This document shows positions 8,569 to 21,142 of a stretch of 21,142 bases of DNA, piece after piece (positions within the stretch are counted from its first letter, which is position 1; each line of letters opens with the position of its first letter). The translations under genes were made by a program, and so were the position numbers. Origin of the DNA: a virus; IMG/VR virus record IMGVR_UViG_3300001750_000219, positions 1 through 21,142 of that record. One strand, 5' to 3'. The notes beneath the pieces are model-generated. The model was not told the DNA's origin. It did not search any database and was given only the letters and a program-made list of their open reading frames with translations.

Positions 8569-11277
8569 CTAACCTGTAATAAATGCAGCACCTTCAGCAA
8601 TTGCCTTAATGCGTATGTTATTAATTAATGACTCTAATACAGCTTGCAATTCAGGTGATAAATTATCTGCGTTAATAGTTATATCACTTCCACCGCGTTC
8701 TATTTGTGCTGTACGGGCATTCAAATGCTTAACGTTAGCAGTATTTAATAATTCTTGCTGATCTAAAAGTCGATCTGCACGATCATTTGCTTTATCGATT
8801 TGATCATCAATAGCTAACTTATCAAAACCACTAGCATTTGCAAACTCTTGATTTAAAGTTCCGAGTAAATCATTTGTTGATACAATTTCACTTGAAATCG
8901 CTTCATAAGCCGCAACTACTCGCTTCGCATCCGCCTCAACATTAGCCACTTCTATTTTTGCAGAGAATTCTAATGCTTTTATTCGCTCATTGCTCGCTAA
9001 TTTAACAAGTGTTTGCTCTAATTCAGCCGCATTTCTTATTGCTAATTCTTCAGATTTAGATAATTTGTCTGTTTCTTCCTTAACCTTTTTTAAATTTTTT
9101 CCAGTATCGTCTAGCGTTCTATTTTTATTGGTATAGACGACTTGACCATTTTCAATGGTTTTTATCCATTCATCCTCAGCCTGCGCCGCATTACTAGTAA
9201 CTTGAGTTAATGCCTTTGTCGATTCAGCGCTTTCTTTTAATGAAGCTGTATTTTGTTCTGTTTCTTTTCTGAGTTCGATTGAATTACCAAGCGCCGCCTC
9301 CACCTCCGCATCAAAATCCCTAACGCCCTCACCTGCACCTTTCCACCCCCCTTCTGCCTCATTCGCTATTAATTTACCATCCTCAACAGCTTTATTAAAA
9401 TCATCCATTGATTTAATAGAAACGCCTGCTTTTTTAGATAATTCTTCAAATGTTTGCGGTAATCTTTTTATTACATCATCTGCGGTTTGTGCATCTTTAT
9501 TAATTCCTTTTACTCTATCCTGCCAATCGTTAAAAGCTTTTATATTTTCAATAATGGCAAAAGCAATAGCTCCCATAGCAGCCGAAAACGCGGCAGCAGC
9601 AGGATTAAACGTAAGTAAGGCTGTTGCAGCAGAGCTAACAGCAGGAACAAAGGCAGCAAATCCTCTTGCTCCCGCAACAACGAGCACTACATCAGCTAAT
9701 AAGCTTAATGTATCACCCAAAAAACCAAGCAATGGTATGACTTTATTTACAGCGGCACCCATGCCAACTAAGTTAGAACCAAAAGCCACCATATCGTTAT
9801 CGCCATCAGCTAATGATTCTAATAGTGATTTTATTGCATCAACAAACGGGCTAAATCCCTCAACAACACCTGCCGTTGCATTAGTTAATAAAGCAATAAA
9901 GTCAACAATACCTTGTAATGCTTGTTCTAAATCTCGCGCATCAGTTAAATCCAAGTCACCGAAAATATTACTTATTTCACCGCCTAGATTTTGAAATGAT
10001 TTAATTAAGCCATCAAAATCAACACCTTTAAACGCATCAGGCAGAGCAACGGCAATACCTTTTAATGTGGCTTCAAAATCAACTAATAACGGTTTAAGTG
10101 CATTAAATAACGGTGCTAACCCGCCTTGTTTTACTATATCTGAAAAAGCACTGGTTAACTCTGACGCACCGCCAGCGACCCCTTTGAAATTATCTAGGAG
10201 TTCTCCACCAACAACAATCCCTAAATTGCTAAATGTCGTTTTAAATTTGTCTACTTGTTTTTCAGCACTATTAAGTCGTAATTCGACCTCTTTAGTAACA
10301 CTGCCAGTGCGCTCCATTGCAGCCGAAGTAATGTTTTGAACTTTCCCTAAATTATCAAAAACAGAAACCATCTTAGATGCTTGTTCAATACCGACTAATT
10401 GAGAGGTAATAACAAGTTTTTGATTTTGATCTAAAGTTTTAAATGCATTAGCGACATCAAGAAATATATCTTTCCCTGAACGCATAACGCCATTTGCATC
10501 AAACTGGGAAACACCGATTTTTTTTAAGGCTTCACCAACAGGCTTGGCATCATCGATTAATTTCAATAGACCTGTTCTTAATGCATTGGCTGCCTCTGGG
10601 CCACTTCTAAAAACTTCGATTACCGGTGTAATCAATCCCGTTGTTTCTTCAAACGTAAACCCCATTTGCTGTGCAACAGGAGAAATACGCCCCATGCCTG
10701 TTGCTAATTCGGCTAAATCTGTCGCATATTTATTCGAAACATTATTCAATGCTTCAATAAACCGTGTGGCTTGATCAGCGCCAGCGCCAAATCCTTTTAA
10801 TGATGAAACTAATATTTCTGACGCACGCGCCGCTTCAACATCACCCGCAATAACTAAATCCAGCGCATCCTTTTGAAGTTTTGCAGATTCTGACGCTGTA
10901 AATCCTGCTTGTTTAAAATTTGCAATGCCTTGTAAAATACTAGATGATGCAACACCATATGTTTCAGATAATTCAAAGACTGTTTTAGTAAATGACTCAA
11001 CAGGCGCATCAATATCACTTAAAACTTTATTTAAATCAATTTGCGCTGATTCAAATTTTGCTGCCTCAGAAACAGCATAAATCCCATAAGCCGCAGCTAA
11101 CCCAAGCACTGCCGCTTCTGTTTTTATAATATCGCCTGCTAATGAGGCTAGCGGAGCTGAGACCTTACCTATGCTACGCTCAAAATCATTTAATTTTCCA
11201 GATACAGAACTTAACCCACTTCCTGTCTGATCAATGGATTTAAATATAATTTCAACAGTACGTTCTAAATCAGCCAT
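8569..11277 (-). CDS. tail tape measure protein, TP901 type, 902 aa
   Basis: The longest gene of the late operon. Its product sets tail length, is threaded through the tube and helps DNA enter the host. Residues about 70-300 match the TP901 core of phage tape-measure proteins: a KFESAQIDLNKVL-like helix, then FKQAGFTASESAKLQ, then LAELATGMGRISPVAQQMGF and GLLKLIDDAKPVG. A hydrophobic Ala/Val/Leu-rich region at about 505-575 (LLADVVLVVAGARGFAAFVP and following) is the usual membrane-penetrating part. Residues about 690-870 are coiled-coil rich. At roughly 1.5 Å per residue, 902 residues would give a tail of about 135 nm. Its ATG overlaps the stop of the frameshift T frame (AATGGCTGA). No lysozyme or peptidase domain is visible. 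Confidence 0.93.
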   Translation of the reverse strand: MADLERTVEIIFKSIDQTGSGLSSVSGKLNDFERSIGKVSAPLASLAGDIIKTEAAVLGLAAAYGIYAVSEAAKFESAQIDLNKVLSDIDAPVESFTKTVFELSETYGVASSSILQGIANFKQAGFTASESAKLQKDALDLVIAGDVEAARASEILVSSLKGFGAGADQATRFIEALNNVSNKYATDLAELATGMGRISPVAQQMGFTFEETTGLITPVIEVFRSGPEAANALRTGLLKLIDDAKPVGEALKKIGVSQFDANGVMRSGKDIFLDVANAFKTLDQNQKLVITSQLVGIEQASKMVSVFDNLGKVQNITSAAMERTGSVTKEVELRLNSAEKQVDKFKTTFSNLGIVVGGELLDNFKGVAGGASELTSAFSDIVKQGGLAPLFNALKPLLVDFEATLKGIAVALPDAFKGVDFDGLIKSFQNLGGEISNIFGDLDLTDARDLEQALQGIVDFIALLTNATAGVVEGFSPFVDAIKSLLESLADGDNDMVAFGSNLVGMGAAVNKVIPLLGFLGDTLSLLADVVLVVAGARGFAAFVPAVSSAATALLTFNPAAAAFSAAMGAIAFAIIENIKAFNDWQDRVKGINKDAQTADDVIKRLPQTFEELSKKAGVSIKSMDDFNKAVEDGKLIANEAEGGWKGAGEGVRDFDAEVEAALGNSIELRKETEQNTASLKESAESTKALTQVTSNAAQAEDEWIKTIENGQVVYTNKNRTLDDTGKNLKKVKEETDKLSKSEELAIRNAAELEQTLVKLASNERIKALEFSAKIEVANVEADAKRVVAAYEAISSEIVSTNDLLGTLNQEFANASGFDKLAIDDQIDKANDRADRLLDQQELLNTANVKHLNARTAQIERGGSDITINADNLSPELQAVLESLINNIRIKAIAEGAAFITG

Positions 11278-11449
11278 TATTAGCTCTGCTATTCCGCTCT
11301 CTGTAAAATAATTCCCATAACACCACTTCAGTACTCGTTAATTCACCCTCTGGAAATAAAGAAGGGCAAGCCTCATATAAGAACTTGCCCCTGGCATCAC
11401 ATAAAGTCATCTTATTTCTTATGCTGTAATTTTCCCAGAGGCTTTCAAC
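11270..11449 (-). CDS. T extension of the tail assembly chaperone, reached by -1 frameshift
   Basis: The -1 frame relative to the upstream chaperone gene is open from 11479 to TGA at 11270-11272. After slippage at 11449-11455 the product continues VESLWENYSIRNKMTLCDAR and then a helix-rich part with LFPEGELTSTEVVLWELFY and RERN, giving a fusion of about 199 residues. In lambda-like phages this G-T arrangement just before the tape measure makes a minor fusion chaperone that holds the tape measure while the short form binds tube protein. An internal ATG at 11410 could also make a free 46-residue peptide, though no strong ribosome site precedes it. The stop overlaps the tape-measure start. Confidence 0.75.
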   Translation of the reverse strand, partial: VESLWENYSIRNKMTLCDARGKFLYEACPSLFPEGELTSTEVVLWELFYRERNSRANNG

Positions 11450-11868
11450 TTTGGGACATTCATACCTAACCCCGTTAATTCAACTATCTTGTTAGTTAAA
11501 GTATAAAATTCAACAGGAAACGTTTCTGCTAACTTTACCGCCGCTGGCATATCAACAACAGGATCAACACTGCAAAATACCAGTTGCTCAAGTCGTTTAA
11601 CAATATCATCAGGTACATTATCAGATAAGCCTATCGCGTGTTTTAATTCATTAACTTGCTCTTGGCTATTACTTATTGCTTTGATAATAGAATCAAGATT
11701 TTTATTTCGACCTGCTGATTCAAACGATTTTGCTATTTCACTTGCAGTTTGCCCTCTAACTTTCCATTTAGGCTCATCATTAAACCATTCTTTTAATGTT
11801 GGAACATCTACAATTTCAATACGTGGCTCAAATTGAGTCCGCATAAACTTTTGAACGTCAAAACTCAC
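11419..11868 (-). CDS. tail assembly chaperone (gpG-like), 149 aa
   Basis: This lies between the tail-tube gene region and the tape measure, the fixed place of the lambda G analogue. Recognisable family features are PKWKVRGQTASEIAK (residues about 33-47), PDDIVKRLEQLVFCSVDP (about 86-103), a VKLAETFPVEFYTLTNKIVE segment (about 111-130) and the end GLGMNVPKLKASGKITA. The protein is mostly helical and soluble. It should bind tail-tube subunits during assembly and is not kept in the virion. Translation starts at GTG 11868, overlapping the previous stop as TAGTG. A slippery heptamer near its end makes the G-T fusion. The family call is from recalled sequence pattern plus context. Confidence 0.8.
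   Translation of the reverse strand: MSFDVQKFMRTQFEPRIEIVDVPTLKEWFNDEPKWKVRGQTASEIAKSFESAGRNKNLDSIIKAISNSQEQVNELKHAIGLSDNVPDDIVKRLEQLVFCSVDPVVDMPAAVKLAETFPVEFYTLTNKIVELTGLGMNVPKLKASGKITA
11449..11455 (-). promoter_or_regulatory. programmed -1 frameshift site, C CCA AAG
   Basis: The minus-strand heptamer CCCAAAG is in X-XXY-YYZ phase with the chaperone frame: the last base of GTC, then CCA, then AAG. A simultaneous -1 slip would re-pair as CCC and AAA and enter the T frame ten codons before the chaperone stop. No clear downstream pseudoknot was found by eye, as in several known tail-gene frameshifts. Confidence 0.72.
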
Positions 11869-12023
11869 TAAGCACCCTCATAGCATTCAACTTCCATCCA
11901 TTCACCACCAACATATTCCTTAAGTGTTCCCACGCCCACATATAAACATTCCTTAAAATCTACGTCCTCTATAAATTCATCCGTCTTATAAACACCACCA
12001 TCATCAAATATGTAAATGTACAT
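11868..12023 (-). CDS. small acidic protein, 51 aa, between tail tube and chaperone
   Basis: An open frame begins at ATG 12023, overlapping the tail-tube stop (TGATG), and ends in TAG overlapping the chaperone GTG (TAGTG). It reads MYIYIFDDGGVYKTDEFIED, then further short strands (CLYVGVGTLKEYVGGEWMEV) and ends CYEGA. Perfect coupling on both sides and a balanced composition support a real gene despite its size. It is acidic and looks like a small beta protein with regular aromatic residues. Small proteins at this point in tail operons are common. The role is unknown. Confidence 0.7.
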   Translation of the reverse strand: MYIYIFDDGGVYKTDEFIEDVDFKECLYVGVGTLKEYVGGEWMEVECYEGA

Positions 12024-13009
12024 CAACCGGCCTTATCGACACTGGCCACATCAGGTGAAATTGTACATGTTACCTGTGGATTGTCCGCCGCACCAAATGT
12101 TCGTGAAATACCAAGCTTTCCTTGAGTTAATATAAACGGAGTTTTAAACTTATCCTGAAAATATCTAAACCATAACGTATCATTTTTTCGAGATAAAATT
12201 GGATCAGTTATGCCATTATTCAATATAGCAGTAAAAGAACCCTGATTTAATGTTTGTGAATTAGAACCAATAGTTGCACCATAAACTTGCGTTGAGGATG
12301 TTGAATGCGTTGTTTCTGCGGGAACAAAATCATTTGCAAACGTTTGTTCAGTAAAAACAGGCTCAGAATAACTTGCATAAACACCTTTTGCGACATCGCC
12401 TGTATGTGATGCAGGTAAAGCCACATCAAACTTAACCGTTGCCGTGGTATTTGCTTTAGTAAACACAGGAAAATCAGCACGTTCAGTATGTGTTCCAACC
12501 ACATCAAATATCTCAGTAACCGTAACTTGTGCCGCGGCTGAGGCCGTCACCCTAACTTGCGCTATTTCTATACTTGTCGTCGGAATATAAGGCGGTCCAC
12601 CTGCTGCGCCCCTTGTTTCACTAAACGCTGCTGTAGCGCCATTTGTTCCTGTAAGCACAGCGATTGCACCAGCATTTGTTATGGTTATTGAATTAACTTT
12701 TGATACATTTGTACCAGCCCGTGTTATTGCTTCATCAGTACTTGCAACAACGGTTGTCACGACACCGTTAAGATTACAAGTTAACGTTGCAATATCAATG
12801 GCATCATCCGTTGCAGATATTGCAGGAATTACAACACCGCCGGTTAATATGCCATTTGGCTTTATATCTGGTGAATTACCAGCCGATTCTGAAAACTGAC
12901 TGGCTTGTGAATTAAATGTTATTCTATCCCCTGAATCAATCAATGCTGACATTGTAAACGGGGTAACTCCTGATTCATAATCAACCCGTGAATTTTCATT
13001 AGAAGGCAT
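12023..13009 (-). CDS. major tail tube protein, 328 aa
   Basis: A Thr/Val/Ala-rich beta protein, lying after the tail terminator and before the chaperone, as tail-tube genes do in siphoviruses. It begins MPSNENSRVDYESGVTPFTM. Strand-rich segments follow through the middle (TLTCNLNGVVTTVVASTDEA; SITITNAGAIAVLTGTNGA), and it ends with NPQVTCTISPDVAS. The middle third has an inserted Ala/Thr-rich beta region that could be a decorating domain. A clean ribosome site TTGGAG stands eight bases before the ATG. Its stop overlaps the next ATG. The tube call rests on order, length and composition rather than a specific motif; the alternative is another abundant tail protein. Confidence 0.7.
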   Translation of the reverse strand: MPSNENSRVDYESGVTPFTMSALIDSGDRITFNSQASQFSESAGNSPDIKPNGILTGGVVIPAISATDDAIDIATLTCNLNGVVTTVVASTDEAITRAGTNVSKVNSITITNAGAIAVLTGTNGATAAFSETRGAAGGPPYIPTTSIEIAQVRVTASAAAQVTVTEIFDVVGTHTERADFPVFTKANTTATVKFDVALPASHTGDVAKGVYASYSEPVFTEQTFANDFVPAETTHSTSSTQVYGATIGSNSQTLNQGSFTAILNNGITDPILSRKNDTLWFRYFQDKFKTPFILTQGKLGISRTFGAADNPQVTCTISPDVASVDKAG

Positions 13010-20227: not shown

Positions 20228-21142
20228 TTATGCATTTTTATCAGAATTATTATTGTAAGTCTCACCTGTAGATTCTAATATAGCTTGCTTCCCTGTGTAA
20301 TCTTGCCAGCGCTTAACTATTAAATCAACATACACACACGAATATTCCATACCATAACAAATACGATTGTTTTTTTCTGCGGCTATAACTGATGTGCCTG
20401 ATCCTAAAAACATATCCGCTACAATTTGATTATTTTCTGAGCTATTTTTAATACAATTCTCAACCAATGCAACCGGCTTCATTGTTGGATGTAAATCATT
20501 CTTTAATGGCTTATCTATATTCCAAACAGAAAATTTATGCTCACCTTTCCCATAAAATTTATGCCGATTATTCCACCCATACAAAATAGGTTCATGTTTA
20601 TAATTATAATCACAACGCCCTAAGACGTGATTATTTTTATTCCATACAATCAGATGACGTAAAGGCATGCGATTTTCATTCATTATCAAAATCATCATTG
20701 AAAACAAATCACCCATTTGTGGACTTGCAATATAATAACTAGAATAATCTGCCATATATGGTGACCATAAAGAAAACACATCAGCCCATAATTGCCCTGT
20801 TTCTTCTATTGTTAAATGATCGTTTTCAATAGGTGTTTGATTTCTATTGCCTTTATCTATTTCATTTAAAAACTTATTCTTATCGGCATAGCTAACTCCA
20901 TAAGGCGGGTCAGTAAATACCAAATCAATAGTTTTGCCATTTAAAAGCTTTTCCACATCTTCAATACTTGTACTATCCCCACATAAAACTCGGTGCCCAT
21001 CTAATAACCAAAGATCACCCCGCTTACTAATTGTCTCATCAGAAACTTCAGGAACAGCATCTTCAGGCGTTAATCCTTCAACCTCTTCAAAAATTAAATC
21101 ACCTAAAAAATCATCATCAAATCCAAGCAAATCAGTATCAAA
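20228..21142 (-). CDS. DNA (adenine/cytosine-N4) methyltransferase, likely ParB-fused, 5' part outside the window
   Basis: Motif IV DPPY is at 20900-20911 and motif I FLGSGT near 20393-20413. Motif IV comes before motif I, the order of beta-type amino methyltransferases. The segment SKRGDLWLLDGHRVLCGDST and the stretch HPTMKPVALVENCI are typical of the phage ParB-like/methyltransferase fusion family. The frame is open through the right edge of the window, and its acidic GFDDDFLGDLIFEEVEG matches the linker after the ParB part, so the N-terminal domain lies outside. It transfers methyl from S-adenosylmethionine to DNA bases. The role in a phage is usually protection from host restriction or control of packaging and transcription. 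The C-terminal tail is polar and ends ESTGETYNNNSDKNA. Confidence 0.85.
   Translation of the reverse strand, partial: FDTDLLGFDDDFLGDLIFEEVEGLTPEDAVPEVSDETISKRGDLWLLDGHRVLCGDSTSIEDVEKLLNGKTIDLVFTDPPYGVSYADKNKFLNEIDKGNRNQTPIENDHLTIEETGQLWADVFSLWSPYMADYSSYYIASPQMGDLFSMMILIMNENRMPLRHLIVWNKNNHVLGRCDYNYKHEPILYGWNNRHKFYGKGEHKFSVWNIDKPLKNDLHPTMKPVALVENCIKNSSENNQIVADMFLGSGTSVIAAEKNNRICYGMEYSCVYVDLIVKRWQDYTGKQAILESTGETYNNNSDKNA

Follow-up and report, generated by a model that had tools for sequence, protein, structure and literature searches.

A very probable lambda-type -1 frameshift in a viral tail chaperone gene, and the changing letters of its slip site

The question considered here is whether a short gene of a virus yields one protein or two. 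The window, i.e., the whole stretch of DNA analysed, comprises 21,142 nucleotides (positions 1 to 21,142 of IMG/VR virus record IMGVR_UViG_3300001750_000219), and on its minus strand the gene in question, below called G, directly precedes the tape measure gene (PhageMin_Tail E 2e-38). A preliminary description of the window had proposed that ribosomes shift into the -1 frame at a heptamer CCCAAAG near the end of G and continue in a frame T; the slip site of phage lambda is GGGAAAG. We consider a lambda-type G/GT programmed -1 frameshift in this tail chaperone gene very likely (probability about 0.92). The reading is supported by the gene order and by several properties that were computed directly, namely the open frame and its phase, the conservation of T from the slip codon on, the coding-type substitution past the stop of G, the aligned A_AAG site and the likeness of the G model to a known chaperone. 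The features concerned are as follows (aa, amino acids).

11419-11868, minus strand: gene G, zero-frame product of 149 aa, putative tail assembly chaperone, GTG start, TAA stop at 11421-11419.
11449-11455, minus strand: predicted slip site C_CCA_AAG, with re-pairing from CCA to CCC in the P site and from AAG to AAA in the A site.
11270-11449, minus strand: T, the -1 frame extension, of 59 codons and TGA, with GTT as its first codon after the slip.
11270-11868, minus strand: predicted GT fusion, 199 aa by arithmetic from the coordinates.

The end of G reads GGT ATG AAT GTC CCA AAG TTG AAA GCC TCT GGG AAA ATT ACA GCA TAA, and within it the heptamer (11455-11449, minus strand) is read as GTC CCA AAG TTG, i.e., in the exact X-XXY-YYZ phase C_CCA_AAG that had been claimed for it. 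On the minus strand the -1 frame stays open over 11479-11270, with the translation INGVRYECPKVESLWENYSIRNKMTLCDARGKFLYEACPSLFPEGELTSTEVVLWELFYRERNSRANNG up to the stop; the predicted fusion of about 199 residues agrees with the count of 140 + 59, and it does end on the start of the tape measure gene, where the TGA of T (11272-11270) overlaps the ATG (11277-11275) and 8 nucleotides (nt) are common to both genes. The genes of the window (21 minus-strand genes with 6133 codons, our own selection from the list of its open reading frames, ORFs) contain 49 in-phase XXXYYYZ heptamers, and for two of these the -1 frame stays open through the stop of the gene; counted from the stop, one adds 3 codons and CCCAAAG adds 49. 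A +1 shift was rejected, the +1 frame reaching a stop 7 bases on from the stop of G. The junction peptide predicted for a slip at CCCAAAG is ...GMNVPKVESLWEN...; trypsin would cleave right at the junction, where the residue is lysine, and another protease is needed for a spanning peptide.

Two copies of the locus, L002 and L003, were found with zero differences from the window over 900 bases, and one relative, L004, is 69% identical to it. The phage records contain two further relatives, in MW202621 (44%) and in Marinobacter phage PS3 (28%), which are annotated there as hypothetical; blastn of positions 8569-13009 against the phage collection gave no match. A four-sequence profile matched 97 viral relatives and 9 genome loci, among them Halomonas, Billgrantia and Marinobacter. 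The best 80 of the 97 viral matches (IMG/VR), the 9 genome loci and the 2 phage records, minus the cut-off locus L085, make up the 90 loci analysed, which dereplication at 90% nucleotide identity reduced to 62 representatives, the window, L002 and L003 forming one of them. L078 and L081, where T runs off the contig, were excluded from the protein alignments. Slip sites were placed at the first A_AAG after an LTG motif, and in L052, L086, L069 and L072 then by hand; the clade labels used below (KARSRL, Halomonas and Marinobacter types) are our own and follow the way T begins. In all 90 loci reading in the -1 frame can continue from the slip point beyond the stop of G; the frame reaches a stop codon in 87 and runs off the contig before one in the other 3.

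T behaves like coding sequence that starts at the slip. Full-length alignment was possible for the T proteins of 60/62 representatives; these align from the slip lysine on, with the consensus KAxxLxxDxxxxxxLxLxDxRGxFLYxxRPDxFPxGxLTxxExxLWxxYYE, in which K1 and L5 are nearly invariant. Past the stop of G, the proportion of synonymous differences in the T frame (pS) exceeds that of nonsynonymous ones (pN) in 21/21 selected pairs (picked from 472, each representative being used at most once), e.g., 0.50 against 0.14 for the window copy L007 and L009, and in the other two frames pS is the smaller value in 17/21 and 20/21 pairs. The T protein has no PHROG or Pfam match; its model consists of predicted helices, with a predicted local distance difference test score (pLDDT) of 83, and a structure search with it returned 5 Foldseek chains, 4 of which could be aligned, none with Z of at least 2.

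What is conserved at the slip site is narrower than a heptamer. The codon pairs of the 62 representatives are GTA_AAG (26), GGA_AAG (18), AAA_AAG (10), GGA_AAA (2), GGG_GAA (2) and, once each, CCA_AAG (the window), CAA_AAG, GCA_AAG and GAA_AAG. Thus NNA_AAG occurs in 58/62, with GUA, GGA, AAA, CCA, CAA, GCA or GAA in the P site, and a canonical XXXYYYZ heptamer occurs in 31/62 and is absent from the other 31, so that the heptamer as the conserved unit was rejected. Homologues keeping T and lacking any slippery site, which the preliminary description had named as the finding that would tell against it, number 0/62 if A_AAG, A_AAA or GGGGGAA are counted as slippery, and 31/62 if the canonical heptamer alone is counted. 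As the sites were placed by searching for A_AAG, the fair test is the column of Lys140 in the protein alignment, which is blind to the motif: a lysine codon preceded by A stands there in 57/59 other rows (49 of them AAG), and in two well-filled lysine columns, 91 and 112, A_AAG is found for 4 and 1 of 48 lysines. The P-site valine is GTA in 26 representatives, and elsewhere in the same genes GTA makes up 19/277 valine codons. A quick tree that left the site out of its input, and in which 25/59 inner branches are open, requires at least 15 changes of the codon pair and at least 9 of the canonical state. On balance, and by a narrow margin, we favour the view that the constrained element is A_AAG, the lysine step in the A site, that the P-site codon drifts, and that lineages have switched repeatedly between a heptamer with two slipping transfer RNAs (tRNAs) and a slip of one tRNA, while the pair of products was kept.

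Some sites of the family are peculiar in themselves. L069 and L072 have G_GGG_GAA adjoining the stop of G, within a family otherwise using A_AAG or A_AAA. In L058, L060 and L067 G has no sense codon beyond the slip codon, and its stop codon comes immediately after the slip site (GGA AAA TAA, GGA AAG TAG and GGA AAA TAG, respectively). L015, L016, L018, L019 and L023 have long A runs at the slip (AAA AAA AAG with an A before it), where slippage of RNA polymerase could also yield both products.

As to the identity of G, its AlphaFold model (mean pLDDT 80) has as its best PDB chains 2ob9, the tail assembly chaperone of HK97, and 3klu (YqbN), each with Z 8.0 over 101 aligned residues at 12-15% identity; 3fgx (Z 5.6) and 5ir0 (4.8) follow, and the next match has 3.1. 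In BFVD the best matches of the model are uncharacterized proteins, and several named tail assembly chaperones come from rank 8 on. One of 60 G members matches phrog_389, XkdN-like, at E 2.5e-4, a score that unrelated families reach alike; with Pfam and NCBIfam the G members gave only unrelated weak matches, and sequence searches of solved structures gave nothing credible. Taken with moderate confidence, the modelled fold indicates that G makes a tail assembly chaperone.

From these data we infer that the shift occurs, and the same holds for its rate, the role of the stem described below and the binding partner of T. A minority of ribosomes would slip back one base at C_CCA_AAG near the end of G, with tRNA-Pro re-pairing on CCC and tRNA-Lys on AAA, and the slipped ribosomes would read 59 further codons in the -1 frame, giving a GT fusion that ends on the tape measure start. 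If the roles follow those in lambda, the tape measure protein would be coated by G, and GT would recruit the tail tube protein.

A different origin of the T protein has to be considered in connection with the following feature.

11270-11410, minus strand: T-frame ORF of 46 aa from ATG 11410-11408, a possible separate start; its equivalent is annotated in MW202621 (569-709).

The statement that the T frame lacks a good start of its own was mistaken: this ATG lies 8 nt past the stop of G, and the ORF escaped the list for the window, which was cut at 50 aa. T might then be a separate small protein, made by reinitiation after the stop of G, and the open -1 frame upstream of the ATG a coincidence. 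The position of the ATG is matched in L004, L009 and many relatives of one clade, MW202621 has the equivalent ORF annotated as a gene in its own right, and in the window pair the T frame gives no signal from the slip to the stop of G. However, ATG, GTG and TTG are all absent from T residues 2-20 in 29/62 representatives, and for these a separate start near the slip is no explanation; alignment of the T proteins sets in at the slip codon, ahead of the ATG, and K1 and L5 hardly vary; the slip is occupied by a lysine codon with an A before it in 57/59 aligned rows; and no Shine-Dalgarno-like match of at least 4 bases precedes the ATG of the window, as judged by eye. We rejected an independent T gene as a general explanation and regard it as improbable for the window as well.

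Still less probable are two further accounts, which differ in the agent or the place of the frame change. Slippage of RNA polymerase instead of ribosomes is conceivable in some relatives (L015-L019, L023), where the A run at the site has at least 8 bases, but the window site has AAA only, and in 46/62 representatives the site is NNA_AAG and its P-site codon is none of AAA, CAA and GAA, which leaves no long A run, so that we give this account very little credence. A real shift that takes place elsewhere in the overlap of about 20 codons would be compatible with a -1 frame open from 11479 on, and relatives of the Marinobacter type do carry up to three or more NNA_AAR sites; in the window, however, the only NNA_AAR site and the only in-phase heptamer of the overlap are both CCCAAAG, which lies on the column conserved in relatives, and this makes another site most unlikely.

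Several results weigh against the programmed frameshift itself. In the overlap from the slip to the stop of G the T-frame signal is weak (pS ~0.30 and pN ~0.21, summed by us over the 21 pairs), and for the window pair the values are 0.19 and 0.32. A start codon is present within T residues 2-20 in 33/62 representatives. The canonical heptamer is lost even in the 69%-identical L004 (C_CAA_AAG), and A_AAG is found also at sparse later lysine columns (7/24 at K142 and 7/9 at K146). The Foldseek E-values of the PDB matches of G are weak (0.12-0.20), which makes the chaperone fold moderate evidence; no BFVD match of the G model reaches 0.001, and the G protein of the window matches no curated chaperone model in PHROG, Pfam or NCBIfam. 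Finally, the stem is not family-wide: 0/12 Marinobacter-type representatives stand out against positions of the same locus, and synonymous shuffles give p<0.05 in 5/47 testable cases, with a mean z of 0.70.

The stem in question consists of the following two arms.

11435-11442, minus strand: 5' arm GCCTCTGG of a predicted stimulatory stem of 8 base pairs (bp), 6 nt past the slip site.
11387-11394, minus strand: 3' arm CCAGGGGC of the predicted stem; the 40-nt loop contains the stop of G and the ATG of T.

GCCTCTGG (11442-11435) can pair with CCAGGGGC (11394-11387) over the whole 8 bp. The 70-nt stretch of the window has a fold of -17.6 (z -1.87), equalled by 11/200 shuffles; a fraction of 0.003 of the positions of the same locus pair as well as the stem, and against synonymous shuffles its p is 0.020. 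The best contiguous stem stands out against positions of the same locus (<0.05) in 17/21 KARSRL-type, 12/12 Halomonas-type and 2/15 other representatives; the fraction for L009 is 0.105. Minimum free energy, compared with positions of the same gene, is below 0.05 in 11/21 KARSRL-type, 2/12 Halomonas-type, 1/12 Marinobacter-type and 4/15 other representatives, with 0.056 for the window and 0.40 for L009. The 70-nt folds past the slip have a mean z of about -2.0 (53% below -1.65) against -0.4 (11%) at one control place, and the 45-nt folds past the slip give no signal. A comparison of the window clade with the KARSRL clade shows two-sided changes at two base pairs (U-A against G-C, and G-C against C-G); with just two rows in the window clade, each is scored as a single event. 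Columns are shared by the window and KARSRL clades only, the stem of the Halomonas type being shifted in register by one base, and the covariation term is small (-0.15). Whether a stem is present shows no relation to the type of slip site. Shine-Dalgarno-like stimulators upstream are little or not at all enriched (21/62 sites, 139/496 control windows), and Rfam at gathering scores gave no match. In the window, the predicted 8-bp stem is probably a stimulator that raises the rate of slipping; within the family, such a role is likely to be limited to clades.

The published record shows how well the site fits known slippery sequences. Among 64 heptamers assayed in Escherichia coli the range tops at 54%, for C_CCA_AAG with the IS3 pseudoknot (PMC4066793), and hence the C-type site of the window, set apart from that of lambda in the preliminary description, is a known and very efficient motif rather than a new one. 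In the same work A_AAG heads the tetramers, the six best of which gave 0.26-5.6% with a pseudoknot (PMC4066793), and a review lists NNA_AAG shifting, with CGA_AAG in Bacillus cdd and IS1222 and C_CA(A) in IS3 (PMC5009743). For two HK97-like tail chaperone genes frameshifting of 6-7% was measured (PMC3711429), and the GGGGGAA (“fivetwo”) site was reported for many actinobacteriophage tail chaperones (PMC10885494). Our literature search for CCCAAAG or GTAAAG in phage tail frameshifts, which covered few subscription journals and does not imply absence from print, gave PMC5009743 as the only relevant source. In the main text of the PS3 paper the words “chaperone” and “frameshift” do not occur (PMC8424206).

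Like the G/GT system of lambda (PMC5009743), the family has a short putative chaperone gene before the tape measure gene with a -1 shift predicted near its 3' end into a T frame, and G_GGA_AAG is used by 18/62 representatives; unlike it, the family has no match to a curated chaperone model, the window site is C_CCA_AAG, and half of the representatives have no canonical heptamer. With the HK97 chaperone 2ob9 and Bacillus subtilis YqbN 3klu the likeness lies in the fold of the model (Z 8.0), whereas identity is low, as given above. The A_AAG and C_CA(A) sites of insertion sequence (IS) elements and CGA_AAG of B. subtilis cdd have in common with the family the A-site step of tRNA-Lys from AAG to AAA, and L004 has C_CAA_AAG (PMC5009743, PMC4066793), but those are transposase or incidental sites, while the family considered here makes a putative tail chaperone, most often with GUA in the P site. 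The actinobacteriophage site GGGGGAA (PMC10885494) is resembled by G_GGG_GAA just before the stop of G in L069 and L072, where the site was set by hand, and the other 60 representatives differ.

The neighbourhood of G includes two further genes.

8569-11277, minus strand: tape measure protein, 902 aa, Pfam PhageMin_Tail E 2e-38, PHROG tape measure families.
12023-13009, minus strand: probable major tail protein, 328 aa, so named by position only; phrog_30644 (function unknown), E 7e-93.

The place corresponding to 12023-13009 is occupied in Marinobacter phage PS3 by a hypothetical gene. Between the gene of the probable major tail protein and G lies an ORF of 52 aa with a TTG start (11868-12026, minus strand), for which Pfam and PHROG searches gave no match; DNA resembling this stretch precedes G in L004 too, as seen by eye. 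In PS3 a small gene for a secreted-looking protein stands between T and the tape measure gene (L006, 5666-6079), followed by a terminator-like hairpin and a T run, again by eye, and in five other representatives of the Marinobacter type (L075, L076, L079, L080, L094) the next long ORF begins 500-528 bases past T. At the edge of the window, the ORF 20228-21130 (minus strand) contains a DPPY motif, which we take to be typical of DNA methyltransferases.

In general, the gene very probably yields two helper proteins of tail building from one message, and its relatives keep this trick while the exact slippery letters change. The curated libraries searched do not name this predicted G/GT chaperone gene. 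With this reading, the family annotated as hypothetical in MW202621 and PS3, and present also in genomes of Halomonas and Marinobacter and in many metagenomic phages, is identified as one of frameshifted tail chaperones, very probably, and T need no longer be missed or called a stray ORF. Its natural variants, in which A_AAG is kept and the P-site codon is varied, would make a ready test set for the question of which tRNA slip controls the -1 shift in bacteria.

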